Origin: Wolfiporia cocos
Taxonomy: Eukaryota > Basidiomycota > Agaricomycetes > Polyporales > Phaeolaceae
Assembly: GCA_029448655.1 (NCBI GenBank)
Contig: JACCLO010000007.1
Coordinates: 3,472,001-3,536,000, forward strand
Reading direction: 5' to 3'
DNA length: 64,000 nt
Shown here: piece after piece, positions 2,947 through 60,784 of the stretch
How positions within the stretch are numbered: the stretch's first letter is position 1
Layout: each line of letters opens with the position of its first letter
The notes under the pieces: generated by a model
What the model was told of the DNA's origin: nothing
Seen by the model: only the letters and a program-made list of their open reading frames with translations
Databases searched by the model: none
Translations under genes and position numbers: made by a program

Positions 2947-2951
2947 GATGC

Positions 2952-22082: not shown

Positions 22083-22641
22083 TGACACAGACTTACGTCT
22101 GTGCTACCCCTGGGCTCAGGGGGAACCATACACGCCGTTGAGCGAGCCTATAAGTCACCGTGCCAGCGCTGAACGCAGAGGCAACGTGGGGGTGACTAGT
22201 CCCCTTGTGTACGTCGAGGTAACAGAGGCGGCTCACAGACTAGCACGACGCGATACGGGCCCCGGGCCAGAGAGCGTCACAGCGATAGTAAGAAAGGGGC
22301 TATGCCCAATTGTCGAGAATCTTAGGAATGGGGAGTAAGCCCACATTCCGTCGTAATATATACATGAGCGATGTGACTACTAGTACTGCCCTAAAGATGA
22401 GGCCTGTGCGCCGTATCTACTGGGTCATGTGCTAAGTGACGCTACATGTAACTACTGTGACCATAACGTGAGTACCGGAGGCGCGCGCTACCCTACAGCG
22501 CTAACCTAACGACCAGGTGACCTGCAATAACTGGGAGTGACGCTGGAGGTGACTATGGAGTAGAGGCGCGGCGTACGCCTAGCGCCGCACATACAACCTA
22601 TAGCGAGGGAGTCTTAATTAATAAAGGAATAATTTGTGACA
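22083..22641 (-). repeat. 3' LTR of N1 (559 bp)
   Basis: TGACACAG..TTTGTGACA, nearly identical to 23431-23989. The first bases form a terminal hairpin, CAGAC-TTAC-GTCTG. Confidence 0.9.
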
Positions 22642-23430: not shown

Positions 23431-23989
23431 TGACACAGACTTACGTCTGTGCTACCCCTGGGCTCAGGGGGAACCATACACGCCGTTGAGCGAGCCTATA
23501 AGTCACCGTGCCAGCGCTGAACGCAGAGGCAACGTGGGGGTGACTAGTCCCCTTGTGTACGTCGAGGTAACAGAGGCGGCTCACAGACTAGCACGACGCG
23601 ATACGGGCCCCGGGCCAGAGAGCGTCACAGCGATAGTAAGAAAGGGGCTATGCCCAATTGTCGAGAATCTTAGGAATGGGGAGTAAGCCCACATTCCGTC
23701 GTAATATATACATGAGCGATGTGACTACTAGTACTGCCCTAAAGATGAGGCCTGTGCGCCGTATCTACTGGGTCATGTGCTAAGTGACGCTACATGTAAC
23801 TACTGTGACCATAACGTGAGTACCGGAGGCGCGCGCTACCCTACAGCGCTAACCTAACGACCAGGTGACCTGCAATAACTGGGAGTGACGCTGGAGGTGA
23901 CTATGGAGTAGAGGCGCGGCGTACGCCTAGCGCCGCACATACAACCTATAGCGAGGGAGTCTAAATTAATAAAGGAATAATTTGTGACA
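23431..23989 (-). repeat. 5' LTR of N1 (559 bp)
   Basis: TGACACAG..TTTGTGACA. It carries the predicted transcript start complementary to the adjacent leader segment 23418-23429. Confidence 0.9.
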
Positions 23990-35525: not shown

Positions 35526-36074
35526 TGTCACAAACTTTCGCTATGCAGGTTTGTACTCCCTCGCTATAGGACGCACGCGCGGCGCTAGGCGTACGCCGCG
35601 CCTCTGCGCTGTAGCCACCTCCGGCGTCTCCCAGTTATTGCAGGTCACCTGGTCGTTAGGTTAGCGCTGTAGGGTAGCGCGCGCCTCCGGTACTCACATT
35701 ATGGTCACACTCGTTACATGCTCGTTACCTAGCACATGACTCAGTAGCTACATGGTGCACAGACCATTAGTTTAGGGCGGTCTCGGTAGTAGATACTAGC
35801 GTGTATAAGTACGACGGAATGAGGGCTTACTCCCCATTCCTAAGATTCTCGACAACTGGGCATAGCCCCTTACTCTCACCTCTTTGTGTGCGCTCTCTGG
35901 CCGGGGGCCCAGCTCGTCTTGCTTGACTGTGCGCGCCTCAACATGTCGACTCTAGGAGTCCCTCTTTAGGGTACAGCCGACAAGTTCACCGCTGTTGCGG
36001 TTGCGCACCGCCCTGTAGGGCGCGTTAGGATTCCTCTGTAGTACAGAGTCCCACAAACGTGTAAGTTTGTGTCA
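35526..36074 (+). repeat. 5' LTR of N2 (549 bp)
   Basis: TGTCACAAAC..GTTTGTGTCA. The U5 end forms a hairpin CAAAC..GTTTG, equivalent to CAGAC..GTCTG in N1. Confidence 0.9.
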
Positions 36075-36819
36075 TAATCTTAGGAATATCTTACCTCCCC
36101 TCCGGCGCCACCTGCGCTGGGGCCGAGGGTTCTCCACCTACAGGTCGCCAAGGCAGCATGGCGGGGCAGCCGACGGTAGAAGCGCCGTCGGTCCGTAGTT
36201 TTACGAGCCCCCACGAAATGCTACACCTGGCAAAGCGACCGTAGGGAGTGAGTAATCAAGTCCGCCCCCCGTGAACATTGGGTAGCGGGATCGACTTGCG
36301 TAAGCCGCGTTTGAGGACCCGCCATCCACCCCTGCAAAGGGAATGCGATGTGTGGAGGTCTAGTGCAGCGGAGCCATTATCCCTGGGCGGCAGGGGTTAT
36401 CGTCAAGAACCTTTGATCAGTGGGTATGTGAAGGGTCCCGCAAGGGTACCCAACCCCACACCGACGATCACGAAGGTCAGAAAGCAATCCTCGACGACCG
36501 ACTACTTCTCCGACAAAACCAACCACATACCCCGAGGTCGGTGCGCCACGTCCATCTATGTCGGCGTCAGTCCTAGGAGGCGGAATGAACAAGCATTACC
36601 ACAACCTCCGATGGGCCCGCTCACCTCTGGAGGGCCTCGTTCACTCACGTTGCGGGATGGGGGGACGTTTTCTTCACTCCTCCACCGGCGGACGGACCGT
36701 GCACATGGACGCTCCTCATGAACCACATGAGCCGTGTGTCAAACAAGCAACCAAGGATGCGAGGGTCGTAGGAAGATAGGTAGAACGTCAGGGACGACGT
36801 TTTTCGAGAGGGGGGGTAA

Positions 36820-37368
36820 TGTCACAAACTTTCGCTATGCAGGTTTGTACTCCCTCGCTATAGGACGCACGCGCGGCGCTAGGCGTACGCCGCGCCTCTG
36901 CGCTGTAGCCACCTCCGGCGTCTCCCAGTTATTGCAGGTCACCTGGTCGTTAGGTTAGCGCTGTAGGGTAGCGCGCGCCTCCGGTACTCACATTATGGTC
37001 ACACTCGTTACATGCTCGTTACCTAGCACATGACTCAGTAGCTACATGGTGCACAGACCATTAGTTTAGGGCGGTCTCGGTAGTAGATACTAGCGTGTAT
37101 AAGTACGACGGAATGAGGGCTTACTCCCCATTCCTAAGATTCTCGACAACTGGGCATAGCCCCTTACTCTCACCTCTTTGTGTGCGCTCTCTGGCTGGGG
37201 GCCCAGCTCGTCTTGCTTGACTGTGCGCGCCTCAACATGTCGACTCTAGGAGTCCCTCTTTAGGGTACAGCCGACAAGTTCACCGCTGTTGCGGTTGCGC
37301 ACCGCCCTGTAGGGCGCGTTAGGATTCCTCTGTAGTACAGAGTCCCACAAACGTGTAAGTTTGTGTCA
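36820..37368 (+). repeat. 3' LTR of N2 (549 bp)
   Basis: Same ends as the 5' copy, directly preceded by the polypurine tract. Confidence 0.9.
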
Positions 37369-41832: not shown

Positions 41833-42205
41833 TGACACAAGCAACACTTCAAGCAACTACTCAGGGGATTGTTACTCGCGTTTCAGCGCAATCCTAGTCT
41901 GAGGCTACTCAAGGCGTATAAGGCCAAGACGAGTCTGGGGTGCTACCCTGCTCATCGGCCAGTATATATGCTATTCTACTGTTTGTACATTGTTTGGCTG
42001 CTGTACAGTTATTACGTAAGCTGAGAGTCCGATACTATGGTAAACCCTATAATGGGTGTAGGTACACGGCACAGAGTGTCCGGGGGGCTGGTAGCACGTG
42101 GTAGGGTGTTCGGGGTCTTGTACGTGACTGCTTAGGCGCGCGCTTAGATAAGATAAGGGTTCTGGCTCTAGTCACTAGCTAGGCGAAAGAAATCGGCTTG
42201 TGACA
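41833..42205 (-). repeat. 3' LTR of Element 2 (373 bp)
   Basis: TGACACAAGC..GGCTTGTGACA, matching 50989-51361 in length and almost every base. The last codons of Pol run into it. Confidence 0.95.
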
Positions 42206-44039
42206 GTACCCCCTCTTCTAGCTGCGTGTCCCCACACCCAGCAATCACTTTGCAGAAGTTTTGGTCAATGTGGCATGGGTGGTCATGGTCGTGCTTTTGA
42301 CAGATGTGTGGATTCGCCATCTGTATGGTATACTGTACGGGATAGATCCAACCCGGGTTGTTGGGTATCGTGGATTCTATGCATTGTCCCACTTGTATTC
42401 CATATTGAATTACACGATTTTTTGGATTGCAAAACCAGAAGTTCCTGGCGACGAGTTGTTTTGGGTAGATATAGAAGGGAATTTTCGCATCCTTCAGTAA
42501 GTCGATATCTACGTCGTCGTGGATGATGAACTCGTTCGGGTTTTGCCTGAGTCCCATGGCAATGGCTTTCTTCTCGAAGTCCTCCCATTCCGGGTCCCAT
42601 TCAGTGTGTCTGTTTTTCCACTGGTGGCCTGGAGCGGTTGGTCTTTCTTCGAAGTATTTGGTTACCAAATCCTGCCAGGGAGTCAATCCGCGTTTCCTTT
42701 CCCATGTCGTCGTCCCATCAGACCATTCAACTTTCAGCTCGACTCGCCCTCGGTCTTCCCTGGATGCGAGGATCCTGAGAGGCCTGCGAGCGTCATTGCT
42801 TTCCGTCTGTTTGTTGTGGTCCTGATTGGGGAAAGCCGGAGCATGATACGGTAGTAGTAGGACTTCGTTAAATACGGGGTATATGCCTCGCATGTCTGCG
42901 GGCAAGTCCAGTGCGTATGCTCCATGTCCGACTTTCTTGGTGACTTTGTATGGACCGTACCGCTTTGAATCGAGTTTCTTCGTAGGGTTTCCCATGTTAA
43001 TGTTTCGCCCATCGACCCAAACCATGTCCCCTTCGTTGTATTCGTGGGGGTTGGTTCGTTTCCGGTCGTAGTATTCTTTCATACGAAGTTTGGCTTTCTC
43101 GAGATTCTTTGAAGCGGTTTGGCTGACCTCGTGCATGTGTTCGACCCAGTCCTTGGCTGTTCCCACCCCCTCTTCCAGCTCTGGTGCCTCCACGCCTGTA
43201 AATGGGTGGTATCCGTGAGTGAGGTAAAAGGGGCTGTAGCCCGTGCTACTATGTACATGACACTTGTACGCGAATGCTGCTAGCGGGAGTAAGTCCGGCC
43301 AGTTGGTATGGGTGTCGTTAATAAATAATCGTAGGTACACCTCCAGTTCCTGGTTCATTCGCTCCGTCTGCCCGTCTGTCTGTGGGTGGAACGCGGTACT
43401 GGGGTTTCCCTCGATGCCTAATCTACGGTATACATCTTTGATGAAGTCCGATACAAACTGTGGTCCTCTGTCGCTAAATACTTTCTTTGGTAGTCCGTGT
43501 TGTGCATATACTTTATCTACAAATATGTTGGCCCAACCTTCGGCAGTAAGCCTGGTTGTGGTTGGGACTGCGATATAGTCCTTGGATTTCATATCTACAA
43601 CTACAATAATAGCGTCCCGACCCTTGGATACTGGGAGTCCCGTGATCATATCGACGGAAATGTTCTCCCAGTTGTGTGTGGGTGTTGGATTCGGGTTCAG
43701 TGGTGCGGCTCTCTTCGAGCGGTCTGGCTTGGCTCTTTGGCACTTGATACATGCCTTGACGTACTGGCGGATGTCGTTTCGCATCTTTGGCCACCAGTAT
43801 GATCAATGAACGGCGGTGTACGTGTTTTCAGTGCCGGGATGTCCTGCCGAGACCGTGTCGTGGAATGACGAAATGATTTTTCCGATTAATTCCTCGTCTC
43901 TCGGAATGATCAGCTTCCCCCTCCTGTAGCGTAGGCCGTCCTCGGCCGTTTCCACTGATCCTTCTACTACCTCCTTGTCGTAGAGAGCGGCTTCCGCTTT
44001 GACCCTCTCTTTTACCTCCTCGTGGGTGATCCCGTGAGG
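42168..44039 (-). pseudogene. pol: Element 2 Pol, integrase and C-terminal part
   Basis: This segment continues the Pol frame after LTR B3. It begins with the pre-integrase region and zinc-binding His pair (..SSFHDTVSAGHPG), hits a TGA at 43803-43805 where the family usually has an Arg before SYWWP, then continues in the same frame with CIKCQRAKPDRS, the DDE core (SVDMITGLP, SDRGPQFVSDF, then the distal Glu) and a C-terminal module (KVEWSDGTTTWERKRGL) that resembles a degenerate chromodomain. An extra tail of about 130 residues follows with no recognised domain and ends in the LTR. The stop is a CGA-to-TGA type change, typical of CpG deamination. Integrase function is probably lost. Confidence 0.85.
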
Positions 44040-45134
44040 TGACACAGATGGCTCTGTGGGACTCACCAAGCCAGTATCCTTGCGATGAACTAAGGCGACT
44101 AGGTGAGGTAGAGGTTATCAGACGCAATAGTAGATGGAAGGTTCTTCTACGGCGTACGCCGAGAAGAATAGAACTAGGGTTATAGGCCGTCAAGGCCCTA
44201 CTTATATACACATATATAACGGGTCATGTGCTACTGTATAGTACATGCCCGATAAGGAATGTGGGCTTGGTTGCCATAAGGGCGACCAAGTGGTATGACT
44301 ACTCTACAAAGGCCGTGGCCCGCCGGTAATGGCCGGGCCAATGGTAAAATAGAGAGTGTGTGGTCTCATCATTAGATGGACATGTGAAGACGGGCGCAGC
44401 CCGGGTATAAGGGATGCCGGTTGCCGGATACCGCGAGGTATAATGGCGATTGGCCGGTCATCGGATGCTGACCAAGGCGGAGCGCCGAGGTCGTAATGCT
44501 ATTGGGCCAGTAGGCACCGTAGCATGTGATATGTCCGGACCGGAAGGTTACCGGAACATATGGTGGTCTTAGCCGTGAGGCGAGGACCGGTGTTTGGGCA
44601 ACGCCGTGATGGCAGAAGCCCGGGACTTGGAGAACGCCGAGTCCGTGGGATGGCCGAGAAGGCCGAGCCTATAGCGATATTGCCTTGATGCTAATATAGT
44701 GCTATTTGGCCGTGTTGCCATTATTATGCGAAGGTGTGGCGCGCCTGAGGTGCCATTGTGATCGAGGATCTTATGGCGGTGGGAAGCCGGGAAGGCCGAC
44801 CCAATAGTACAAGGCCGCGAGGCACTGTTTGTACTTGTGGACATTATTATGCGAGCGTGCCGCGCTCGGCCTATCATTATGATCTAGGATCTATGACGTG
44901 GCTGGTCTTGCTCTGACGGGCGAGACCTGTATGACGTAGCTGTAACTATGCTATTGGACCGGAAGGTGCCGTAGCGTTATGTAAGCTGGTCATGTGGTGA
45001 TAAGCCCAGTTAAGAGCTTGTCGTGGTGGCAATGGGAGTTAACCCGTAGATAACTGGTAGTTAGACGTATAAATCCCAGGTAAATTGCTATAATCGTAGG
45101 AAAAATGCTGTAAGCCCCAGATAAATCTGTGACA
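44040..45134. repeat. Solo LTR B3 (1095 bp) inside Element 2
   Basis: TGACACAG..TCTGTGACA, with TSD TGAGG at 44035-44039 and 45135-45139. It splits the Pol frame of Element 2; the coding frame on the two sides is continuous once the LTR and one TSD copy are disregarded. Confidence 0.95.
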
Positions 45135-45139
45135 TGAGG

Positions 45140-45367
45140 TAAGGTATAAAATGAGTATCTCAGCCTTTCTGCGCTGTCTTTGGCGAAGAGGTGCTCCTTC
45201 AAGACGATCTGTCCTTCGAGGTGATCCTTGTTGTCGTCGTGATCGCCTCTTCGGGATAGGCCGTCTGCCCTTCCATTGGTCTTCCCGGGGATGTGCACGA
45301 GTTGTAGGTCGTACTCGGCGAGTTCCGTCATCCACCGGGCTTGTCGTGGATTAATCTTTTGTGGGGT
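45140..45367 (-). pseudogene. pol: Element 2 Pol, end of RNase H and connector
   Basis: A short stretch of Pol stranded between solo LTRs F and B3. It reads KINPRQARWMTELAEYDLQ and HIPGKTNGRADGLSRR, the conserved end of Ty3 RNase H (RQARW.., NGRADGLSR). The frame matches the neighbours on both sides. Confidence 0.9.
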
Positions 45368-45927
45368 TGTCACAGACTTACCAGTCTGTGAGGACCCAGG
45401 CATCTGGGGAGGCCCTAACGCCTAACAAGGCGGTGCGCAAGCCAGCAAGACCGCGACGTCGGCTGTATCCCATGGGGGAACTCCTAAGAGGCGACGAGTT
45501 GAGCTGGCACACAGACAAGCTAGTCGAGAGGGGCCCCGGGCCCGAGCGCACGCAGACAGAGGATAAGAAAGGAGCGTTAGCTCATTGACGAGAATCCTAA
45601 AGATGGGGCTGTAAGGCCACCATCTTGTCGTATATATACATGCATGAACGTTGAGAGCACGAATCCTACCCTAATGTAATGGCCTGTGCGCCGTAACTAA
45701 GGGATCACGGGAACGTAACGTAACATGTAACTAATGTGACCATCATGTGTCCGTATGATGAGGCGCGCGCTACCCTACAGCGCTAAACTACTAAGTCAGA
45801 TGATCTATATGGCTGGAGGAGACGCTGGAGGTGGCTAAAGATCAGGAAGACGCGCGCGCACCTAGCGGCGCCTGTGAATACCAATAGCGAGGGATGTACA
45901 GATACCCCCCAGGAGTGATCCGTGACA
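45368..45927. repeat. Solo LTR F (560 bp) inside Element 2
   Basis: TGTCACAG..CCGTGACA, with TSD GGGGT at 45363-45367 and 45928-45932. The left end is a hairpin CACAGAC..GTCTGTG. It interrupts the RNase H domain. Confidence 0.95.
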
Positions 45928-48900
45928 GGGGTCTTAAAGTATTCTAAATTCTTATGGTCCGTTAGTACTTCTACAGGGTGTTTTGCACCCATTACAAAAT
46001 GCCGCCATTCGTCTAGGGCGCGCATTATGGCCAGTAGTTCGCGATCGTAAATCTCGTAGTTTCGTTCTGCTGGTAGTAGCGTCTTTGAGTGGTACGCTAT
46101 GGGTTTCCAGATGCCGTCTTGATTCTGCATGAGGCAGGCTCCAGTTGCGAAGTCTGAAGAGTCTGCTTCGATGCGGAATGGATCGTCATCGTTTGGTATC
46201 CCTAGTACAGGTGCTGTGACGAAGATATTTTTTAACTTGTCGAAGCATTCCTGTTCCGTCACGCCCCATTGCCATTCTCCATCTTTGGTTAGATTGATAA
46301 GGGGGCGTGCTACCGTTGAGAACTTGGGTATGAATCTCCGGTAGAAGTTGGCAAATCCTATGAAGGATTGTACTTCTTTCTTGTTCCGAGGTGCCGGCCA
46401 TTCGGCTACTGCGGCGACCTTCGCGGGGTCCATACGGATTTCCCCGTGAGAGATTATGTGCCCTAGGTACTCTACTTCGGATTTCTCGAACTCGCACTTT
46501 TCTGGTTTACAGGTCAGCTTATTTTGACGGAGAACCAAAAGAACCTTGCGCAGGATCTCTCTATGTTCTTTCTGGTTCTCCGTGAAAATAAGGATATCGT
46601 CCAAATATACAATGACCTTCCCCGTGAGGACTAGGTCTCTAAATATGTCGTTCATCAAGGTCTGGAACGTGCCTGGTGCGTTGCACATTCCGAAGAACAT
46701 CACTAATGGCTCGTAGAGCCCCCTATTAGTGATGAAGGCGGCTTTTTCCTCGTCGCCTTCCTTGATTCGGACGTTGGTGTATCCCCAACAAATGTCCAAT
46801 TTGGAAAAGTACTTAGCCCGTTTAAGCTTGTTAAGCAGCTCCGTGATGAGCGGGAGCGGGTACTTGTTCTTTTTGGTCATCTGGTTCAACTTTCGATAGT
46901 CCTGGATAGGGCGTAGTTTCCCATCCTTCTTTTTGACAAAGAAGAAGGGTGCCCCCCATGGTGACTTCGATGGGCGGATGCGGCCCGTGCGCAGTTGTTC
47001 TTCTAGGAAATCGTCCAATGCTTCTTGTTCTCTAGGTGAAAGGGCATAGATCTTGCCCGCGTATGGTTCTGAATTGGGGAGGAGCTCGATGGCGTGGTCC
47101 CACGGTCGCCGTTCTGGGAGTGTGTCGAATTCCTTTTCCTCAAACACGTCTTTGAATTCGTGCAAGTACTCGGGTACGACTTCCTCGAACGTCTTGGCTT
47201 CCGTGGTTTTGCCAGTCGCGATGGCGATTTCGGTTGCCTTCGTGGCGCGGACTCTTTCGGCGATGTCCGCTCTGCATTCATCCCTGTTTCGGATCCATGC
47301 GTCAGCGAAAATGTAATAGACGTGATCACCGTCCTCGATCTGCTCGTGTTCGCAGTCACAAGAGAACGTGATCCGTCGCTTCTTCCAGTCAATGGAAGGG
47401 TTGTGGTCTTTGAGCCAGTCGAAGCCGAGAAATATGTCCGCAGAGCTGAGTTCCGTGACGTGGAACTTGCGAGTTTCCAAGTGCATGTCGATCTGCATTT
47501 GGAGCTCAACGTAGTGCGTCATGAGTCCCATGCTGTTGGTCGATCCGTCCGCGTTGAACAGCTTGATAGGGCGGTCTAATGGGATCTGCTCGAGTCGGTG
47601 TTCCTCCACGTAGGACTTACTAATCACCAATCCAGTGGAACCGGAATCGATGAGAGCCTTTGTGAAGAGGGCGAGTCCGGATCGTGGAGCAATGCGTCCG
47701 TATACACCGGCTGGCATCCTGATCTTGATGCCAGTGTCTACGGTGATACGTTTCCCATTAGGAACAACGACCTCCTCCGCAGAGTAGAGGTCGTACCCGG
47801 CGGCACCTTCGCTTTTGCGCTCAGGTGGGATTGCCCGCGGGTGGTCTAGGTATATGTCGAGCGTGACCGTCCTTTTCTTGACGCGTCTACGCCGCACTTT
47901 CTTTTCTGATTTTTTAGTGGTACCTGATGCGTCTGCCATTTCCACATCAGGTGTCACTACCGGGTCCACATCCATCGGAACATATGTTACATTAACGTTG
48001 GAGGAATTAAGCACGGTATTTGCCTCCCGCCACGCTCCAGTGGGAGGCGCCTCCAAGGCTGTTACAAACGAGTCGTCGGAGCATGTTGAAGCTCCGTCGT
48101 CGTCATCTATGTCCGATTCTACAGATGCGAGAGGTACAGATACTGGTTCTAATATCGGGGCCCCGGTCTCTAGCCCATATAGTCCATCCACCGGTTCGTC
48201 GTTCTCCGTGGCAGCCGAGTCACTTTTTTTGGAGTTTACTGGTTCTTCTACTTCCAATACTGAAAAGCGATTCGAGGGGGAGGGACTTACCTGAGTGGGC
48301 GCGAACCCGGCTTCTTTTGCGGCGTCAGGGTTCTCCTTGGCCCAGGCGGCCACCATTCGGACAAAGTCCTCCTGGGGGATCTCGCTAAGGACCGTGGGAG
48401 CGTCGTTCCCTGCAATAGCCTGCCGAGTTCGCTGTGTTCCGGATCCACTGGCGGTGGGGGTAGCGTTGGTCTTGGGCCGCCAGTTTGGTTGGTGCCAGGA
48501 TGTCTTGGTGCATCCCTTACCAGGTGCCTCGGCCTGTGTCTTGCTGCAAGAGTGGCACTTCCTCTTGAGCAAGTTTGCCCTTTCTTCCGCAGTTGGCTCC
48601 GTGCGGGGGGCGCGCTCGGGCTTAGCACGCTCCTTGCCCTTGTCCGTGGTGCTCCTTCCGCTCCGCAGTTTTTCCTCGTCCCGGAGTCGACGCATCGCGT
48701 TGTCGGTCCGGAGGATAGCCTGTTTCCAGGATTCGTAATCCTCCGGGATCTGGACATTGTACCCACGTTGCGATTTGTCGTTGACGGTGGCGGCGACGAA
48801 TGCCTGGTGGACCGAGGAATAAATGTCCTTGGGGATGGCCCTGGTGACCCAGCTATGGACCACCTGGTTCTCCCGGTCGTATTTGGCTTCTCCCAGGAGT

Positions 48901-50294
48901 CGTTCCAACTCCTGGAAGTATTCCTCGCCTTTGCCGAGCGTCATGGTGAGTCGCTCTGCCGCTACTGCCGCCTTTTTCTCCAGGTCCGGGTCGTCGAACT
49001 TTTGGTGCAGTTCCCAGACGAACCGTTGCCAGCTGATCCTCCACTGTCCTCCCAGGTAGTTTTCCCTGGTGAAGGCCGTTACCCATGCATCGACCTTTGG
49101 ACCGCGGATCAACAAGATTGCCGCGCCCACCTTCTTGGAATCGGTGAAGAGGATGGGGGCGTTGTCGTCGATGTACAACTGGAGCCGCATGTACCAGTCC
49201 GTGAACCCGGTGCCGGTGAACGCCTCCGGTTCCCTGACCTTGGACTTGTACCGGGGGTTGGGCTGTGGTTCGGGCAGTATTGAGTATGTGTCCCACTGCG
49301 ACGATGCCGGTTTTATTGGTCTCCACATAGACACGCGAGTTCCCTGGAGAGGCGCGGCTCCCCAGGTGTTCACGCGCGCGTTCTGTGTCGGCACGGGGTT
49401 ACCGAACATATCGTGCGTCAGTGGGGGACGGACTGCCTGGGCGAAGGTGTCGGGGCGGACGGGTGCTGGGGCCGTAAGTACCGGGGGTGTGTAGCCGGGT
49501 AGGAATGGGTTCGTTTGCCGGGAGTTTCCACGAGTCGGGGGAGTGGGGAGAGGTCGGGATCCGCGCGGTGTCCGCTGGGGAGAGTGCATGTGCACCGATC
49601 TGACCCAGTTTTCTACCGGACGGAACCTACTCTCTGCGACCGAGACGGGGGTCCTGACGGGGGGAGGTGCCTGGCTGTGAAGTGACGCTGCGTCTCCGGC
49701 TTGGAGAGCGTCCGCCTGTAATCGTTGGGCCTCCCGGAGGAATCGTGCTCCCATTTCCCGCGACCATGTCCCTACCGCTACCATTGCCTGCGCGACCTGT
49801 TGGCATCGCGCGCCGAAGTCTGCCGTTGTGGGGTCGGGCGGGAATGCCCATTGCATGGCGAGCGGCGAGTCGATGTGTCCCAGCTGGTTATTTGCGCGCA
49901 CCGTGTTGGACTGCTCCCTTGCCATCTGGAAAGCCAGGTCCATCATTTCCGTGCCGGGGCCTTGGTTTTCCACCGATCCGCCGAGAACGAGCGAGCGGGG
50001 GGGTTGGTGTTCACCTATGGTTTCCGTGTGGACTGGAGCGGCTTCTACCGGGGGTCGTGGGGCGTGCATGCTGTCGGCCACTGAGAGGAGGGAGAACTCC
50101 TCTGGTAGCCCGTGCACTTGATAGTTTACCCACTGCCCTGGTAGGAATGGGTTTGTGCCGGCGGAGCCGGGGAGCGGGACGTTGGCTGGAGTTGGGGCGT
50201 CGGGCCGCGGGTTGCGGATGTAGTCGATGTCGTGGGGGGCGGCCATGGTATGTAGGATGAAAGTGTATAGTATGAAAAGTGTAGTCGCGATCAA
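45928..50294 (-). pseudogene. gag-pol: Element 2 Gag-Pol: Gag, half dUTPase, protease, RT and RNase H
   Basis: A single long frame of about 1455 codons. The start at 50294 gives a hydrophobic leader (MIATTLFILYTFILHT); an in-frame ATG 15 codons later (MAAPHDIDY) is the more likely Gag start. Gag has a capsid-like region (FTGTGFTDWYMRLQLYID) and a non-canonical Cys/His cluster (CHSCSK..GC..SWH near residue 580). Next comes the front half of a dUTPase (about 805-868; motifs AGYDLYSAEE and GRIAPRSGLA) joined directly to the protease (ALIDSGSTGLV near 881), then RT with YLDD near 1232 and RNase H (EADSSDFATGA near 1375). The frame ends at solo LTR F. Gag and Pol share one frame, unlike the other elements. 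Confidence 0.9.
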
Positions 50295-50988
50295 GACCGC
50301 TACCTGCCCACTGTGGCGCCTCCGAAGAGCTATCGGGGTGGTAACTAGAAAGTCTCAATCCACTACAAACTGCGTCCACCTCTTTTTGGAGATGTGCCAA
50401 GAAACGCTAAGGGGTTTTCTTCCCAAAGCCGGCGAGAAAACGCAGCCTCCGAAACCTCGTCCAGCCCTGAAGCTAATTCAGGATACCGGGGGCACGGGAA
50501 CTATCCGCCTATGTGGTGGGGCGTGTAAAAGTTCTACCGTAAGGCGATTTCCTGCCTCTTCAGCCGCGGGTTACGCGCTGGGTTGTATAGTAACGGGGGC
50601 GCGGTAATGCGCGTATCGTTGGGGCAGTAAGGCCCGTAAATAGACGACCAGTGCCTCTGTACACTGCCACAGGGCCCCTTAACGCCTTTGACTATTACGC
50701 GTCGGGTGCACAGTTACTGTGGTGGGGTTGTAACCCAAGACCTTTACAACCGCGTTGCACGGTGTTGGTCCAGTAGCTTAGAAGCAGTGGCAGGAGAGGT
50801 CCCCTGCACGCTGTTCGCAAGATTCCCCCAGAACTCTAATCCCTTAACCCTGGGATGTGGCGGGTATGAAAACCGATCACGTGCTCGGAGAACCGAAGTT
50901 CAACAAGAGCGAAAGAAAGGTGCACTTTGCCCCTAGTGCGCCGGGGTTGTGTAGGGTAAACCGCTACACGGGGTGGAGACTCGTCTTA
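50295..50988 (-). promoter_or_regulatory. Leader of Element 2 with self-priming site, no ORF0
   Basis: 694 bp without a convincing ORF. Bases 50977-50987 (AGACTCGTCTT) pair with 51082-51092 in the LTR. The lack of ORF0 separates this element from Elements 1, 3 and 4. Confidence 0.7.
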
Positions 50989-51361
50989 TGACACAAGCAA
51001 CACTTCAAGCAACTACTCAGGGGATTGTTACTCGCGTTTCAGCGCAATCCTAGTCTGAGGCTACTCAAGGCGTATAAGGCCAAGACGAGTCTGGGGTGCT
51101 ACCCTGCTCGTCGGCCAGTATATATGCTATTCTACTGTTTGTACATTGTTTGGCTGCTGTACAGTTATTACGTAAGCTGAGAGTCCGATACTATGGTAAA
51201 CCCTATAATGGGTGTAGGTACACGGCACAGAGTGTCCGGGGGGCTGGTAGCACGTGGTAGGGTGTTCGGGGTCTTGTACGTGACTGCTTAGGCGCGCGCT
51301 TAGATAAGATAAGGGTTCTGGCTCTAGTCACTAGCTAGGCGAAAGAAATCGGCTTGTGACA
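50989..51361 (-). repeat. 5' LTR of Element 2 (373 bp)
   Basis: TGACACAAGC..GGCTTGTGACA. In sense, the TATA (GCATATATACTG) lies about 30 nt before the self-primer AGACTCGTCTT. Confidence 0.95.
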
Positions 51362-51409: not shown

Positions 51410-52503
51410 CTGCTGTAACCCTGCTGGTGTGGACCTCATAGTGTCTGTACCCTGGGACATTGACAGGTACACAGACATGCTTGGGAGCAGGCCAAGTGGT
51501 ACCAATGATATGTTGGAGCTTCGGCTTGAAAGGAAGTGGGGTCCTGTGCAGCAGGGACCCCTGCTTGAGATTTCTCGTTCGTCCATCATTATGGATGAGC
51601 ACAAGAAGATCCTCGCATGGTGCTTGCCATTTGTGCTCTCAGAGAGGCGTCAGGTATGTGTGCATGTAGAAATGTGTTGACAAACACTAAATCTCCCTCA
51701 CAGATATTGATGAAGGCTGCAACAATACATCTCAACCAGCAGCTCAAATTTAAGAACACCCCAGATGATAGTGCAGAAGAGCCGTCAAGGAGCACAAGTT
51801 GGAGAACAGACAGACGGTATTTCAGAGAATGGAGCCAGCTCGAGCTTAATTCCGGTGTCGTCAACCTCTCCCCTGGGTGGCACCACCAAGGACATGAAGT
51901 AAGTCCTCTTGATGCTTACACCTGCTCTCCTCAATCAACTGTCCACATCAGGGACTGAATGATCCAATCTACATCTCTGCCAGCCTCAGAGACAAGAACA
52001 AGCAGGCAGGCGATGAGTGGCTCCGCGACATACAAGAGTCGTCCGCCATTCTCTCCAGAATGATGGCGGTCATGCACCCTGACCTGCATGCGGCGGGGCA
52101 GGAGTGCATGAGACGACTTGCACAGAATGGGGAGCTGAAGGATACCTTAAAACGGTGGGCTTCCATATTCAATGGGGCACAGATCATAAGCAATCGTGTC
52201 ACCCCAGCTCACCGCGACTCGAAAAGTCGCATGCAATGGTACGATCTGCTTGCCAGCATCGGTTCCTACCACAATGCGTCCCTCGACCTACATGGAGCCA
52301 ACATTTCAATCAAAGATGGACCTGGAACTGTGATTGCTCTCTGTGGCACAGCAGTTCGACATTCATTGATGAAGTATGAAGGTGACAGGTTATGTTATGC
52401 TTACTTCATGAGGGACAGTGTGCATGCTAGCATGCATGTGGAGGCTGCCGGCTGGTGCAAGACGGACCATGTGGAGGCACTTTTGATGTTGCAGGGGCTG
52501 TGA
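51410..52503 (+). CDS. TET/JBP-type 2OG-Fe(II) dioxygenase, 3' part (three exons)
   Basis: Exons 51410-51653, 51704-51898 and 51952-52503, with 50- and 53-nt GT..AG introns and a TGA stop, encode about 330 residues of a protein whose 5' end was separated by Element 2. The catalytic core is visible: an H-x-D motif in NRVTPAHRDSKS, then WYDLLASIGSY, GTVIALCG, a second His in RHSLMKYEG and the Arg-containing DRLCYAYFMRDSVH. This order matches the fungal TET/JBP family, Fe(II)/2-oxoglutarate enzymes that oxidise 5-methylcytosine or thymine in DNA and that in basidiomycetes are known to be associated with KDZ transposons. A KDZ transposase fragment lies convergently at 55562-56312, which supports the reading. 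The catalytic part is intact, but the gene is unlikely to be expressed normally with 9.5 kb inserted. Confidence 0.8.
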
Positions 52504-52504
52504 A

Positions 52505-52704
52505 GGTCGCAGAGGGAGGTCACGGAGATCGCGGAGGTCGCGAAATGAGGCCGCGAGGATCGCGAAGGTTGCGGTCGTGAAGGTTGCGGTGGCCGCGGTG
52601 GTCGCGGTGGTCGCGGTGGTCGCGGAAGGAGGTTGCGGTGGTCGCGAGGGTCGCGAAACAAGGTCGCGAGGGTCGCGGGTGGCAGTCGCGGGGCTGCAGC
52701 AGTC
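52505..52704. repeat. TCGCG-motif array at the 3' end of the TET/JBP gene
   Basis: GGTCGCGGAGGTCGCG-type units start at the stop codon of the dioxygenase gene and continue on the far side of the palindromic element at 55169-55290; the two parts formed one array before that insertion. Confidence 0.85.
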
Positions 52705-53315
52705 TGTCACGGTAACCACCGTGCCACCCGCCTCAGCGGGGAACCTCTATATCCGCCCTATCCCTAACACCTAAAGCCCCTCACCCTCCATAGGCGGAGA
52801 ACAAGAAGGCGCTCCTATTGAGGAGCCCTGCCGCATTGCACAGACAAGCAGGTAAAGATAAAGAGACAAGGTAGATGCAATGAATAGAGGCCCCCACGCC
52901 CAAGTAGGACGTAGCAGGCTTTGTCGACTAAGACCCTGCACGCAGAGACGAGCAAGCAGACGGTATATGAAAGGTTGCCAGGGGACACGCCCCCAACGAC
53001 GAGAAGATAAGTTCTGAGGAGTACCTCAGAACGCTACCTAGTATATATACATGTGGACGCAGACCCCTATAGCTACAAGACCTGCCCTAATGGCGTGGTC
53101 TGTGCACACTGTGACTACGCCGCACATGACTAAGTAACGATCGTGACTCCAGTGACGTACCACGTGACCTATGTAAGAGATAAGATATGGCGAAGACTTA
53201 TCTATTTCCCAAGCACGTGCAGTCCCGGGCGGCTAGGTATAACGTAGCGAATATCTGGGGAATAAAGGTGAGTAAATCGACAGGGAACCCCTTTATTCCG
53301 GAATTTCTTGTGACA
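52705..53315 (-). repeat. 3' LTR of N3 (611 bp, family D)
   Basis: TGTCACGG..TTCTTGTGACA. It contains a short inverted repeat GGAATAAAGG..CCTTTATTCC near the right end, the same place where the 5' LTR turns back on itself. It differs from the 5' arm at many positions. Confidence 0.9.
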
Positions 53316-54023
53316 TCACCCCCCCCTTAGAATTTTCGTCGGCCCGACGAAGGATGTTCCCCCTAGCTACTCCCTGTCGACGATTCTTCGACGCTCGCAC
53401 TCACCGCTGGTCGACCTGAGTGCCCACCTCCAGTTTCGGCACCTAATCCCCAGCCTACCTCCCTAAGCCGGTCCCGTCCTTGCGCTCGCCGCTTTTGCAT
53501 TTTCACCGGCGGTAGGAGCCGTTTTCGGCGCTCTTGGTACTGGCGCTCCCACACGGTGTGCTTGGTTATTTGCACGCGGTTGGTAGGACGTCGGTTGGAT
53601 GGTGGGTGGTTGCCCTGGTGGCGTTTTGGTCTCTGGGCCTCCTTGGTGGTGGAGGTCGCGTCTGTCGTCTAAGGGCGTCCATAGGTACGGGACACCTGTC
53701 GTCCGGCTTCACTTCGCTGACCTGCCGACGTGGGGTTGCACCGGGGTGCTTCACATACCCACTAAGGTCGAGTGTCGCCGATCCTCTCGCTGCCGAGGAA
53801 CTCCGCTGTGACCTGCGGAGTCCAGCTGGCTTCTTCAATCCGCGGTCGGTCCTGGGCGCTCGTCGCCCTGACAACGCTTATGTGGGGGCTGGCATGTATG
53901 TCTGCCGACCTCTGACGCTTGTGCCAGAGGCTGCCCCGCCACGTCGTCGAACCTATGCGTTGAAGACCCCGAGGGCCCGTATACGACGTCAACGGGCGGT
54001 CGGGTAGAATAGAACTTATCTTA
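53316..54023 (-). other. Non-coding interior of N3
   Basis: 708 bp without a convincing gene. It holds a polypurine tract at its left end, a self-priming segment near 54010-54022 (AGAACTTATCT, complementary to LTR sequence AGATAAGTTCT) and a leader hairpin at 53909-53930. Confidence 0.75.
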
Positions 54024-55168
54024 TGTCACGGTAACCACCGTGCCACCCGCCTCAGCGGGGAACCTCTATATCCGCCTATCCTAACCCCTAAAGCCCTCCA
54101 TCCCCCATAGGCGGAGAACAAGAAGGCACGTCTATTGAGACGTCCTGCCGTATTGCCCAGACTAGCAGGTAAAGGAATAAAGACGAGGTGGATGCAATGA
54201 ATAGAGGCCCCCACGCCCAAGTAGGACGTAGCAGGCTTTGTCGACTAAGACCCTGCACGCAGAGACGAGCAAGCAGACGGTATATGAAAGGTTGCCAGGG
54301 GACACGCCCCCAACGACGAGAAGATAAGTTCTGAGGAGTACCTCAGAACGCTACCTAGTATATATACATGTGGACGCAGACCCCTATAGCTACAAGACCT
54401 GCCCTAATGGCGTGGTCTGTGCACACTGTGACTACGCCGCACATGACTAAGTAACGATCGTGACTCCAGTGACGTACCACGTGACCTATGTAAGAGATAA
54501 GATATGGCGAAGACTTATCTATTTCCCAAGCACGTGCAGTCCCGGGCGGCTAGGTATAACGTAGCGAATATCTGGGGAATAAAGGTGAGTAAATCGACAG
54601 GGAACCCCTTTATTCCCCAGATATTCGCTACGTTATACCTAGCCGCCCGGGACTGCACGTGCTTGGGAAATAGATAAGTCTTCGCCATATCTTATCTCTT
54701 ACATAGTTCACGTGGTACGTCACTGGAGTCACGATCGTTACTTAGTCATGTGCGGCGTAGTCACAGTGTGCACAGACCACGCCATTAGGGCAGGTCTTGT
54801 AGCTATAGGGGTCTGCGTCCACATGTATATATACTAGGTAGCGTTCTGAGGTACTCCTCAGAACTTATCTTCTCGTCGTTGGGGGCGTGTCCCCTGGCAA
54901 CCTTTCATATACCGTCTGCTTGCTCGTCTCTGCGTGCAGGGTCTTAGTCGACAAAGCCTGCTACGTCCTACTTGGGCGTGGGGGCCTCTATTCATTGCAT
55001 CCACCTCGTCTTTATTCCTTTACCTGCTAGTCTGGGCAATACGGCAGGACGTCTCAATAGACGTGCCTTCTTGTTCTCCGCCTATGGGGGATGGAGGGCT
55101 TTAGGGGTTAGGATAGGCGGATATAGAGGTTCCCCGCTGAGGCGGGTGGCACGGTGGTTACCGTGACA
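54024..55168. repeat. 562-bp inverted repeat (head-to-head LTR arms)
   Basis: Arm 54024-54585 and arm 54607-55168 are reverse complements with no net indel (paired positions sum to 109192). The only mismatch I found is 54485/54707. The spacer is 54586-54606. The final 27 or so bases of the normal LTR are absent from the middle. Confidence 0.95.
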
Positions 55169-55561
55169 CAGTCGCGGTGGCCGCGGTGGTCGCAGTGGTC
55201 GCGGTGGTCGCGGTGGTCGCGGAAGGAGGTCGCGGTGGTCGCGAGGGTCGTGAAACAGGGTCGTGAGGGTCGCGGGCGGCAGTTGCGGGGGTCGTGGAGA
55301 TCCATGGTGATATCTCTGTGGCTGCGATGCAGGTCATTCTAGTAGCAGTAGAGGTTGATATGGTGCCTATGTATACAGAACTGTTCTCCTTATGTACATG
55401 TCCTGACCAAGGCTTCTTTATGTTATGCGAATTGAGATTGAAAGCCACATCTGCTTTGGTTGAAGCTGAGACCTTGTTTCATGATCCCTGGTTCTCAGAC
55501 TCATTTTGGATGTATTTTCCGGTGCTCATATACAAGTGAAACTCCTCATGGCTTTTCCTAT
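55169..55561. other. Intergenic DNA between the TET/JBP and KDZ genes with the rest of the TCGCG array
   Basis: The array occupies 55169-55290. The remainder is unassigned and reaches the stop of the KDZ fragment. Confidence 0.6.
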
Positions 55562-56312
55562 TTATGTGTGGCCCTTGAATGTGCTAGCTGCAGACTGAGC
55601 CATCTCTACCCACATTGCCTGCTGTTGAAAAGCATATGCCTCTGCTCCTCGTTGGGCTGTTCCATCTGCTATCTCCTGCCAATCCCTCGCCCTCTTCTCA
55701 AAATATCTCACCGTCCAATTCATCTCTGCCAGCACGATGGCATGCTCCTCTTTCCATCTATCATTTCTTGCCTTGGTCCTTAGCCAGTTCACCCGTTGCA
55801 CTTTCAGCTCACATCAATAGGTGGACGTGCTGACCAGGACAGCTTGGAGACTCACATTCAGCCAACCAGTCAGACTGGCTGGTGTCCCCTGCCACATCCA
55901 CCGCCCAGATCCAGGACATGGGCTGGTTGTGCATGCCCTGGACTGTGTTGTCCATTATGTGAGTGATTGCCTTGAGGTCTTGTGGCTTGAGAACCTTGTA
56001 CTTTGCCAGTATATCCCCGTTGGCCCCGAGCCGTTCCATTGCCCGTCTTGCCTGTGTATAGACCCGTGCGTGTCGAGCCACCATCTTGGCCACCACCTGC
56101 ACTTCGCCCCATGCCCGTGTCTTTGTTTGCTGGCTGTTGGATGGCCTCACTCTGTTCCGGAACAGGAATGACTTGTGTCCGATCGCCACTCGGATCTCAT
56201 GCAGGGCATCATTGGCCTGTCCTTGCCGTAGCTGTAGCTCCACCTCAGCGATGTGCCCCCATCCTCTTCTCTCGATTGCTGATGCCCCGAGCTGTGAAGG
56301 TAATGAAAGGCA
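55562..56312 (-). pseudogene. KDZ transposase, C-terminal fragment
   Basis: On the minus strand an exon from about 56312 to 55856 and a last exon 55800-55562 are joined by a 55-nt GT..AG intron and end in TAA. Recognisable KDZ-type features: LPSQLG, the helix AEVELQLRQGQANDALHEIR, MSWIWAVD, then RVNWLRTKARNDRWKEE and EMNWTVRYFEKRA..W. These are the helical C-terminal segments of basidiomycete Kyakuja-Dileera-Zisupton transposases as I know them. The catalytic and Cys-rich N-terminal parts are missing, because upstream sequence has been replaced by Element 3. It is convergent with the TET/JBP gene, about 590 bp apart before N3 inserted. It is fused in frame with the RT of Element 3. Confidence 0.75.
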
Positions 56313-57851
56313 CGCCTTAACCTTGGTTGGTTGAGGCCAATCAAGAACCCCTTCGTACTTCTTTGGGTCCATCGCAACGGAGTTATGGGAGATAATCATC
56401 CCCAAGTACTCGATGGACTTTTGTTCGAAGAAGCATTTCTCGGGTTTCGCATAGAGGTCGGAATCCTGAAGTCGCTGCAATACGGCTTTGACTAGTTTCC
56501 GATGCTCTTTGAGGTCGTTTCCGAAAATTAGAATATTGTCTAGGTAAACGATAACCTTTCCCGACTGAATGAAGTCGGAAAGGACGCTATTCATCATCGC
56601 TTGGAATGTGCCTGGCGCGTTACAAAAGCCAAAGTACATTACAGTAGCTTCATACAGCCCCCTATGGGTAATGAAGGCTGTTTTCCACTCGTCCCCTTCC
56701 TTTATCCGCACGTTGTTGTACCCTCAACGGAGGTCGATCTTTGTGAAGATTGATGCGGATGCGAGCTGATCTATCAACTCGGATATGCGAGGAATGGGAT
56801 ACTTGTTCTGTACTGTGATTTCGTTTAGCTTTCGATAGTCGACTACCATGCGCAGTGACCCGTCTTTCTTTGCTACAAAGAAAACGGGTGATGCTATCGG
56901 CGATTTGGATTCTCGGATATAACCTTTGCGAAGTTCTTCATCAATCCACTCATCTAAGGAGTTTTGCTGAAGCTTAGACATTGGGTAACGTTTTACGGGT
57001 TTCGGCAGTGTTGCGCCTTCGACAAAGTCGATGGCGTGGTCATAGTCCTTGCGGACAGGCATCCGCTCTGACGCCTTGTGACTGAACACTGTCGGACCAA
57101 ACTCATGATACTCTTTAGGGACTAGCGATCTCCACTTTTCAGTTGAAGACGAGTCTAAGGATTCTTCATCCTTTTCGAGTATCTCTGCTACAAGTTGAGC
57201 TAGAGTTTTGTTATCTTCGTTATCTAGCTGCGATAGCCAGTTAACGAAGGGATTGTCGGAATCTCCTTCTCCTAGTGTGTCCAGAGGAAGATCCCATATG
57301 CTGACCACTTCGTCAGGGAGTTCATCTGCCTCCTCCTCCGACGGTTTGGCGGGTCTTTGCCTTTTAGCAGCATGTATGCATTTTCCTTCTTTTGTACACC
57401 GGTCATAAGATATCGTTCCTGCACTCCAGTCGAAGTGCGGGTTATGACGTGTAAACCATTCGTACCCTAGTATAAGATCTTGACCACTAAGTTTAGTTAC
57501 GGCGAGACCGACAGTCTCCTTATGAATGCCGTGGACCATGAAGGCCTTAACTAAAGTGTCGATCTTTCCCGCTTTGTTGTAGGTGCCGTCTGCATTATGT
57601 ACGTTAATGACTGGGCGAAGCGGTTGGGTTAACAGGTTATTGGCGGTGACGAAGTCGGAATTAATGACGCTAATTTGAGCGCCACTATCTACAAGCGCTG
57701 TAGCCTGTACTTTCTTTCCGTATACCCAGAGATCCACGTTAATCTTGAAAGATGTAGACGTGTCGCGCGATTGATTATGATAAATATTATTGATCTCTGC
57801 AGTGGGTACCATACAACTACGCTCGGTCATCATACATGGACAGGCCGTCAC
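56313..57851 (-). pseudogene. pol: Element 3 Pol: protease and reverse transcriptase, truncated
   Basis: The frame is -1 relative to Gag. It contains a retropepsin ([12 protein letters not shown]), an acidic connector, and RT up to the thumb region (LDW.QPTKVK). A TGA at 56724-56726 replaces the Trp of the LRWGYNN motif that is intact in Element 1; the change is a G-to-A in sense. Beyond it the frame reopens and carries YLDNILIF, where the catalytic YLDD has become YLDN. RNase H, integrase and chromodomain are missing because the sequence switches at about 56312 to the KDZ gene. It is non-functional. Confidence 0.85.
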
Positions 57852-59818
57852 ATACGATCGTAGTAAAAATCCGAAGTATATTTTTTCTTTAAGAGCCGCT
57901 TCGGCGGCTCCGAGAGGGTGGACTGGTGAGCGATAACACCAGTCGTGTCGGGGACGGTATCCTTATCGGCGTCCGAGTCCGTCGCCGCGACCTCCTCGAT
58001 GTGCGCGTGGGTGAGCATCCCCACGGTGGATGTGGTTGCGCTCTGCCCCTCGTCGTTGTCCTCCTCGTCCGTCTCATATCTTTCAATGATACGGACGAAG
58101 CGGCGCTTCTTTCCGTCGTTAGCAGGTGCCGGCCTGCTCGACGTCGTCGATGTGTTTGATGACGACCCGGCTGTCATCTTGGACGCTGAGGGGGCGGTTC
58201 CCTTCGGCTGGCCCTTCCACTTGCAATCGTTCCAGCCGGTCGTACAGTTGTCGCGACCGCACTGGGCGCACTTGTGGGGGGGAGAGACTAGAATTCTCTT
58301 CCCATCCTTGAGTACGCGCCACGATGCATCGGGCCTAGCGTTGTCGGGTAAGCCCTGCCCTGCCTTCTTCGTCTTGGTGCCCCCACCGCTGGCGGTCTTT
58401 TCAGATCCGCTGGTTTGGGACGTAGTGATAGTGGCGGCCTTTTTGCCGCCCGAGCTTCCCTCCACCTTCTTCGTCTCCTTCTTCCCGTCTTCGAAGATAC
58501 TCCCGGAAATAGCGTCGGGGTACGCATCCTTGTAGAACTCGATAGCCATATCGAGATACTTTTCCCACTCGGTGGGGGCGGGGTGCTTGATGATCTTCAA
58601 CATCGAGAAGCCATCGCGTACCTTTTCGGGTAACGCGTCCTTGAGCTCCTCCAGCACCGTCGAGTTCTCGGACTTCGCCGCTTTGACAAGTTGGCGAAGT
58701 CTTTCTGCGTACGTGAAGAAGTTGGCTTTCGCCTTCTTCTTCCCCTCGTCGCCGAAATACCCTTTGATCTCCTTACGGGCCACCTCCTGGTCCGTCTTCT
58801 TCCCGTAGACGCGCTCCATATCGTCTTCGAACTCCTTCCACGTTCCTAGGGACTTCGTTACGTCTACCGAGTCCCTAATCCTCTTTTCCTGATATTGGAA
58901 AGCCGACCCTGATAGACGCTGCAGGGCTTCGACGATCTGCTCCCGGTCCTGGTAGATTTTTGCTACCGAGAAGTACATGATGCACTTCTGGATCCATTCC
59001 TTCACTGGGATTTTTGATCCATCCCCGGTGAAGGTCGGTGGGGGCGTCGCCTTGGGGCGGAGAGGTGCTACTCCAGCCGGAGTAGTGGTGGTGGTGGATG
59101 TGGAGGCGGCTGTCGTGGTGGCAGCGGCCTCGAGTTTGGCGAGGCGATCGGCGAGATCGCGTGTGGTCGTGGACTCCAATTTTCGGAGTCTGGTGAGGGC
59201 GGAGTCGAGGTCGTCACGGGTCGACTTGACCCGGTTTTCCGATGCTGTTAGGCGCGCCTCCAGAAACTTGGTGTACTGGCGGTGCTCGTCTGCCCTGTGA
59301 AGGACGAGACGTAGCCTGGAGTCGAGAGTGTATCGGAATCGACGAAGTTCCTCGTCCGTGTACCTTGCCGCGACGTTGGCGTTCTCGTTCATGAAGTTCA
59401 GACATAACTGAAATGTCTGGCGTAGAGCGATATGCTCTGCTTCGGGTATGGACTCATATGCGTCTTCGGCCACCTCGAATTCCTCCCTGACGGGTAGGAC
59501 TTCCTGACTCTCAAACTCCAAAGCCGTGTACTCGCCAAAAATCGGCGGTAACTGCTTGTTCCCGACTACGGGGCCCGAGAAGTGGGACGGCCAGAGCTCT
59601 GATGGGGGGAGTTTGGGTCGAGGGGCTGAACGGGGAGCGGGCGTGCGTGGTGCACGTGCGACGGGTGTGGGGGAGGTGGTTCGCTCCGGGGTGTGCACGG
59701 GTGTGTTAACCGCGGTGCGGGAGCCGGATGCTTCGGGTTGCGACATTGCTAAAAACCTGGTGAGCACTTGTTTGACAAAAGCGCGGGACAGCCTGTAAAA
59801 GGAGGAGAACCGAAGCAA
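57848..59818 (-). CDS. gag: Gag polyprotein of Element 3
   Basis: 656 aa. A basic, Pro-rich N-terminus (about 20-80) is followed by an acidic helix-rich region, a coiled coil (about 165-235) and the capsid-like domain ([30 protein letters not shown]) closely similar in layout to Gag of Element 1. The Cys cluster [16 protein letters not shown] near residue 515 lacks the His of a CCHC knuckle, an odd variant. The C-terminus overlaps Pol by 4 bp (stop within TATGTGA), with Pol in the -1 frame. The reading frame is intact although Pol is dead. The nearer ATG at about residue 25 (MSQPEASGS) is an alternative start. Confidence 0.85.
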
Positions 59819-59940
59819 AAAGGTACGTAATTACTAAAAATATCTACTGCCATGTGTTGTGCCTTTCTTGAGCGCGAGCTTGAAGTCACACCAGTAGAAG
59901 CGTTAAAGCAAGACCCCTTATCAGGTGGTCTGCGAGGGTT

Positions 59941-60784
59941 TTACATTTGGTGGACGGGGAACCATACATTGAGGGCGTTAATGCCCCGTATTATACGTTG
60001 TATGTGTTCTCTATCTACGCTAGGATATCCAGTCATAAAGTTCCCTACGATCTTACAGTTCTTAACTAACAGCCGCATTTGGCTGTTGTCGATCCGGTCC
60101 ATAAGGACCGCCTCGATGAATCCCTTGCATACCGTTTGGAGATCCCGTATAAGGTTGGTTACCTCATAGGTGGGATGTCCGTTGCAGAGATCCGCGTTCG
60201 CCACGATGCAAGTATACACCGGGGACAATACCTTCACGGTCTCTAGTAGCGTGGGTATCACCTTGGCACCCCAGTCGAACTTCTTCTCCGTGCAGGAGAT
60301 GTCGAAGACGTTGAAGTCTCGAGGGATGTCGTAGAGGCGTCTTTCAGCCCACTCGGCCCGCGGTAAGCGGACGAGGTCGACGATCTTCTGGAGTTCGTCG
60401 GGCGTGAGGATCCGGTTCATAAGCGACTGGTCGGGGGGCGGAGGGGCGCGTAGAGCGCAGGAAGCTGCGTCGGCCTCGACGTGGCGAGCTACTTCGGCTT
60501 CTTCCTCTAAGCGTCGCTCGAGGGCGCGCTTAGCAGAAAGGGCCGCGTACTCTCGCATGGCCTTAGCTTCTTCTTCCGCTATCTGCTGGTTCCTTGTTTT
60601 GATGGCTACGGGGCGGAGGCGAGGCCCGTGGTACCTCCTTTCGGCTCTTGGACGGAATGTCCCAGAGCTCCGGTTTGCCGTTGGCCGCGTTGGTAACTAC
60701 CATCTTATCCGGCATCTTGCCGGTGTCACCCTTCTGCTTCTGCTTCTTAACGATCGGGCCGGCCCTCAGGCGAGCCTCAACCAT
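59941..60784 (-). pseudogene. ORF0 of Element 3, frameshifted
   Basis: Same position as ORF0 of Element 1 (just upstream of gag, 122 bp away). The first part (60784 to about 60610) starts MVEARLRAGPIVKK and carries GKPELWDIP, matching GKLHLWEIP of Element 1. A one-base frame change near 60600 is needed to enter the second part, a Glu/Arg/Ala coiled coil (about 60580-60470) followed by the helical domain with KKFDWGAKVIPTLLETV and MRLLVKNCKIVGN, which align with VIPMLEGTL and WRIMKKYCKQLGN of Element 1. The order coiled coil then helical domain is conserved. Function unknown. Confidence 0.75.

Follow-up and report, generated by a model that had tools for sequence, protein, structure and literature searches.

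Inverted LTR-like terminal repeats are a family trait of DIRS and Penelope elements, and DIRS-like elements carry a tyrosine recombinase and are not known to leave a target duplication. For elements with direct LTRs, the LTR complexes of grasses are explained by aberrant template switching, in which two elements become joined ahead of integration (Sabot and Schulman 2007, PMC1950507), and in HIV-1 the 3′ end of minus-strand strong-stop DNA is described as priming on minus-strand DNA, giving aberrant cDNA that is reduced by nucleocapsid (PMC4668388). The LTR polymorphisms of co-packaged HIV-1 RNAs reveal which RNA was used in each strand transfer (Cappy et al. 2017, PMC5651808). Finally, the Tf1 and Tj1 elements of the Ty3/gypsy group have a primer-binding site (PBS) complementary to the 5′ end of their own mRNA (PMC4600332).

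The window analysed here, a 64,000-nt stretch of the Wolfiporia cocos genome (contig JACCLO010000007.1), contains a short LTR element of 2464 nt on the minus strand (52705-55168), here called N3, which has the TG...CA LTR ends, PBS, polypurine tract (PPT) and 5-bp duplication of an LTR retroelement, probably a non-autonomous one, and which departs from the normal LTR layout in its 5′ LTR. Its features are as follows, in window coordinates:

52700..52704, target-site duplication CAGTC, left flank
52705..53315, minus strand, complete 3′ LTR of 611 nt, with U5 of type B at its left end and the U3 terminus at 53315
53004..53015, minus strand, self-primer sequence AGAACTTATCTT within the 3′ LTR, predicted mRNA start (R), with TATATA beginning 34 nt away
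53259..53299, minus strand, inverted repeat GGAATAAAGG/CCTTTATTCC of the 3′ LTR (halves 53259-53268 and 53290-53299, 21-nt loop), near the U3 end and unbroken
53316..53329, minus strand, PPT adjoining the 3′ LTR
53316..54023, minus strand, internal region of 708 nt between 3′ LTR and inner arm
54011..54022, minus strand, PBS AAGATAAGTTCT, complement of the self-primer in R
54024..54585, minus strand, inner arm of the palindromic 5′ LTR, U5 of type A, LTR unbroken up to 54616
54586..54606, minus strand, spacer of 21 nt, contiguous with the inner arm
54607..55168, plus strand, outer inverted arm, its end coinciding exactly with the U5 terminus
55169..55173, target-site duplication CAGTC, right flank

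The first-pass annotation had described a palindromic 5′ LTR, its 562-nt arms differing at one position (54485/54707) and separated by 21 nt, with outer ends that are both U5, CAGTC on both flanks, and a turn-around falling on an inverted repeat already present in the LTR, and all of this was found again. The U5 sequence at both outer ends is TGTCACGG...CCGTGACA, and the repeat GGAATAAAGG/CCTTTATTCC is whole in the 3′ LTR, where no other inverted repeat pairs 10 nt perfectly across a loop of ≤60 nt. The spacer has the orientation of the inner arm, and the outermost 16 nt of U3 are missing from the 5′ LTR. No pol was seen in N3, and the only stop-to-stop frame of ≥150 aa in the 708-nt internal region is a 163-aa antisense frame. 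This internal region has 12 near-full-length matches in the genome (97–100% identity, N3 itself counted), LTR-PBS junctions likewise number 12 in the genome, and in the family to which N3 belongs (family D) a perfect 5-bp duplication was found at 26/29 solo LTRs and 8/8 complete units fetched.

The grass complexes and the structure of N3 share a single 5-bp duplication around the whole unit, but the former are direct repeats with a common middle LTR and N3 has inverted parts with U5 at both ends (PMC1950507). A third direct LTR between two internal regions, as in those complexes, is not what we see, since the arms are inverted, and the main text of PMC1950507 has no word starting with 'inver', 'opposite', 'palindrom' or 'head-to'. 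A direct complex of the template-switch type does occur elsewhere in this genome, at positions 1-3311 of locus L044, with three identical direct LTRs, two internal regions and one duplication (GAACA).

The right flank of N3 is a repeat with 24 matching places including its own, 17 of them whole-length at 100% identity (rounded), and 14 of the other 23 copies were fetched as paralogous empty sites. When the N3 flanks were joined with a single CAGTC, the joined sequence matched across the junction in 14/14 copies; 13 of these have gaps elsewhere in the minisatellite-like flanks, and the remaining one (L050) matches without gaps at 438/442 positions. N3 thus arrived as one insertion in an existing repeat, unless a normal copy was changed later.

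A search for further insertions of this kind in family D, proposed at the outset, returned N3 alone: the U3-stem pattern of the family occurs at 96 places, all of them listed, and only N3 has two stems in close head-to-head position. Five more insertions came from two other short families (N_D7 and N_D8), the U5 tips of which were found at 99 places (all listed) and 122 places (100 listed). These lists contain at least 10 opposite-strand pairs within 5 kb, all 10 facing outward. The pairs come from eight loci, and at six of these a perfect 5-bp duplication lies directly outside both U5 ends. Two of the six, L067 and L068, are the same insertion, identical over 2949 nt, with L068 lying on a second contig, flanks included. 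There are therefore six independent two-U5 insertions including N3, each with its own perfect duplication (N3 CAGTC, L063 CTCTG, L064 AGACC, L065 GGTAC, L066 CATGT and L067 GTGTA), and two-U5 structures account for 7 of 215 listed loci, a working count in which 80 of the 100 listed U5 matches of family D (139 places) were used and the 20 with three mismatches were left out. The idea that N3 was a unique case, on which a single fold-back junction and the family D scans had agreed, was overturned by these U5-tip scans. Joined flanks of L065 match an internal region with one GGTAC, and those of L067 match an LTR with one GTGTA. The two other loci, L069 (contig C5) and L070 (C7), are without a duplication and were treated as neighbours.

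As a control, 100 listed of the 161 U3 tips of a single type were compared, and none has an opposite-strand neighbour within 5 kb; the U3 tips of L063-L065 fall outside this type. The U5 list of family D (100 listed of 139) contains two outward pairs within 3 kb, both from N3, and three inward pairs, while 100 listed of the 816 tips of the large E1 family include three outward and two inward U5 pairs closer than 5 kb; outward orientation is thus not special in every list. The three outward E1 pairs were likewise treated as neighbours: none has a target duplication, and a PBS adjoins two of the right ends directly and precedes one left end, as it does in normal 5′ LTRs. Of the inward pairs of family D, those at C76:3398673/3399353 and 3400672 were set aside as a solo LTR beside a normal element, and the remaining one lies at C4:2756406/2759020. 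So far, two-U5 insertions are found in short elements alone, with none among the 100 listed of 816 E1 tips.

The six insertions turn at different points: in U3 in N3, in U5/R in L063 and L064, within the internal region in L065 and at the PBS in L067, while in L066 U5 is joined close to the internal 3′ end. The 5′ LTR of L063 is a U5/R palindrome with arms of 119 nt and a spacer of 52 nt, and L064 follows the same plan with arms of 127 nt that differ at three sites and a spacer of 13 nt; in both, only U5/R is present, the spacer continues the outer arm and the inner arm extends into the PBS. L065 consists of two outward-facing LTRs, with arms of about 699 nt and two mismatches over 698 compared positions. 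In L066, an inverted U5 piece (1 difference/137) is followed at the joint by the internal 3′ end, PPT and LTR, and the joint holds a 1077-nt insert (403-1479) with TGTCAC...GTGTCA ends and its own duplication GGAGC, which matched none of the window LTRs tested and is probably a solo LTR of a family outside these. L067 is an inverted dimer of half-elements from two subfamilies, one half ending within 2 nt of the outer end of the PBS and the other about 10 nt short of it. Matching bases at the turns, counted by eye, number 10 in N3, 5 in L063, 7 in L065 and about 2 in L064 and L067, and are imperfect in L066.

Two types of U5 are present within N3. At 22 columns, all within 52756-52873 on the U5 side, the 3′ LTR departs from both arms, and it has zero differences to the inner arm at the remaining aligned positions (52705-52755 and 52874-53299). 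The U5 of the arms is that of the intact elements L011 and L012 (0/167 columns differ), and the U5 nearest to that of the 3′ LTR among the LTRs compared belongs to L044 (6/171 columns differ); the internal region has nine differences each to L044 and L015, and 18 and 19 to L011 and L012. As background, seven of eight other family D elements with both LTRs show no differences between them and L030 has four, scattered; the eight include L046 and L047, possibly a single insertion. Four further elements of the window have LTR pairs 0-1 site apart. Because a single RNA has just one U5, N3 needs two RNAs, or later conversion. L063 repeats the pattern, with arms that are identical (0/119) and 14 columns away from its own 3′ LTR, and the LTR stretches of the two halves of L067 differ at 180/592 columns. 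Three insertions, N3, L063 and L067, thus carry the marks of two RNAs; L067 is evidence of two different molecules, and N3 and L063 have two U5 types with arms alike. Counting against this is the identity of U3-R in the three LTR segments of N3 (save the one arm mismatch) despite their differing U5s, which means that the two RNAs must have had that part in common. No donor with the U3-R of N3 was found among 47 full LTRs, the nearest being 18/429 columns off. Clear signs of two RNAs are absent from L064, L065 and L066, and self-priming is just as possible for these three.

Two further observations concern family D LTRs. The LTRs of L011 and L012 agree in U5, have one gap in U3 and differ at eight columns within LTR positions 331-386 (R), so that R in this pair behaves as though it were recombining separately. 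L046 and L047 lie on two contigs, do not differ in their LTRs and are both flanked by GCCGT; they are probably one insertion within duplicated sequence.

All five LTR elements tested in the window, with four primer sequences between them, have a PBS complementary to 11-12 nt of their own LTR, a length reached by 0-1 of 1000 shuffles. TATATA starts 32-34 nt before this self-primer in four of the five; an exact TATA match was not found for N_D8. The five elements share the self-primer arrangement of Tf1 and Tj1 (PMC4600332), with the predicted mRNA start (R) at the self-primer, and a fragment of the mRNA would therefore prime the minus strand, which would begin where U5 meets the PBS. Complementarity of the PBS to the (here predicted) mRNA 5′ end is common to both, but no two-U5 insertion was noticed in the account of Tf1 and Tj1 (PMC4600332), and no pol was seen in N3.

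We propose, with a probability of roughly 0.76, that N3 and its kin are insertions of linear cDNA with U5 at both ends, generated by priming of minus-strand DNA on minus-strand DNA. The 3′ end of a growing minus strand would pair with another minus strand in the particle, in some cases possibly with the priming strand itself, where an inverted repeat or a short run of matching bases allows it, and would copy this template up to its 5′ end. Every minus strand starts at the U5/primer junction, so the copy would end exactly in U5, and integrase could then join the two U5 ends with the usual 5-bp duplication. In the case of N3, plus-strand strong-stop DNA from a type-A RNA would have been transferred to the minus strand of a type-B RNA, the minus strand would have copied the type-A strong-stop back to the hairpin near the U3 end, and it would there have switched onto the displaced type-A minus strand and run to its end. 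We infer this order of steps, the displaced strand as template and the two RNAs per particle. As the spacer of N3 continues the inner arm, the switching strand would be the minus strand in the 5′ LTR; in L063 and L064 the spacer belongs with the outer arm, as would suit strong-stop DNA that primes itself. We favour a single rule, in which a minus strand primes on a minus strand, with both routes in use. N3 would need an intermolecular second transfer, and in HIV-1 this transfer is reported to be generally intramolecular, with an argument that it can be intermolecular (PMC5651808). LTR polymorphisms mark the RNA used in both systems, but the HIV-1 second-strand transfers described by Cappy et al. 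have normal ends and no inverted arm (PMC5651808).

It is reasonably likely that cross-priming between the minus-strand cDNAs of co-packaged RNAs recurs in these self-primed elements, producing inverted heterodimers and palindromic-LTR molecules that were integrated normally; if so, the insertions record the stage of minus-strand synthesis and which RNAs shared a particle. RNA made from the inner arm of N3 would have the normal layout, and the palindrome should therefore not pass to new copies, each case being a single event. Consistent with this, all six structures differ, and the only repeat sighting (L067/L068) is a duplicated site. The inverted repeats of DIRS and Penelope elements are a family trait, whereas the two-U5 insertions are single events in families otherwise with direct LTRs, and their 5-bp duplication sets them apart from DIRS-like elements.

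The alternative that survives best overlaps with this reading: truncated minus-strand strong-stop DNA would self-prime, serve as plus-strand strong-stop DNA and be transferred via the PBS to another minus strand. It fits L063 and L064, with their spacer in the outer arm, U5/R only and an inner arm running into the PBS, and also the identical arms and different 3′ LTR of L063, and it has a described precedent in HIV-1, where minus-strand 3′ ends likewise prime on minus-strand DNA (PMC4668388). The HIV-1 products are however aberrant cDNA, and the products here were integrated; moreover, N3 turns in U3, after minus-strand transfer, unlike strong-stop self-priming in HIV-1 (PMC4668388). As this scheme fails for N3, with its spacer on the inner arm, and for L067, a two-subfamily inverted dimer joined at the PBS, we regard it as a tentative explanation of the whole class, although some of the six may have arisen in this way.

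The mechanism originally suggested for N3, in which the minus-strand 3′ end of a single finished cDNA, lying in the 5′ LTR, snaps back on the hairpin, extends through U3-R-U5 and is integrated, holds in part. A two-U5 molecule formed before integration and used by integrase agrees with the 14/14 empty sites and the five further insertions with duplications, and N3 does turn on the only 10-nt hairpin of its LTR, with a spacer in the inner arm, in keeping with a minus-strand 3′ end located in the 5′ LTR. The hairpin folds as single-stranded DNA at -6.7 kcal/mol, but 11/200 shuffles fold equally well. What is not supported is the single finished cDNA: its template strand would run on into the PBS, leaving the exact U5 stop unaccounted for, as are the unlike U5s of arms and 3′ LTR, both of which a second minus strand as template accounts for. 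A simple self-snap-back also fails as a rule for all cases, since the inner arm holds the spacer in N3 but the outer arm does so in L063 and L064, and we consider this explanation unlikely.

Still less probable is a change after integration, in which fold-back template switching during chromosome replication or repair made a normal 5′ LTR palindromic. Short matching bases are present at both joints of N3, the outer one being GTGACA only, and because both LTR tips, U3 and U5, contain GTGACA, the duplication would survive a second switch at that point, so that for N3 taken alone a later fold-back in the chromosome is conceivable; however, six insertions each end exactly in U5 with their own intact duplication, the U5s are unlike, L067 joins two subfamilies, and opposite U3 pairs are absent among 100 listed of 161 tips. 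Long perfect palindromes are a known class of artefact, but fold-back reads in sequencing or assembly would hardly end at LTR termini or create target duplications, the arms are not identical in N3 (1 site), L064 (3) and L065 (2), and L067 is found again with its flanks on a second contig, which makes this the least credible explanation of all.

Priming on minus-strand DNA (PMC4668388) and direct template-switch complexes (PMC1950507) were thus already known, and the novelty lies in the integrated two-U5 insertions: among the open-access papers listed, no title or abstract opening describes an LTR element integrated with U5 at either end. As products of minus-strand priming, they would sit in the genome with intact duplications, so that integrase would need no U3 end in these elements, and they would reveal the extent of minus-strand synthesis, and whether a particle held two different RNAs, in a natural genome. 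Two-U5 units would probably be overlooked or wrongly classified by programs built around direct LTRs, and may be commoner than known.

The window contains several other repeats. The E1 element (7694-17691) has identical 699-nt LTRs, a duplication CAATG (by eye) and an open frame (8432-13018) for protease, RT, RNase H, integrase, a chromodomain and a C-terminal dUTPase, and its U5 tip occurs at 816 places with ≤3 mismatches; the E1 family is large and autonomous. Three more LTR elements (22083-23989, 35525-37368 and 41833-51361) have one LTR difference and a self-primer match each. A repeat region at 27810-28538 contains four copies of a 234-nt unit (73-100%), and the surroundings of N3 (52400-60700) consist of the host repeat followed by long minus-strand frames (55809-60696). 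Elsewhere in the genome, four same-strand U5 tips with a spacing of 1349 nt (C34:147871-151942) possibly form a longer tandem array.
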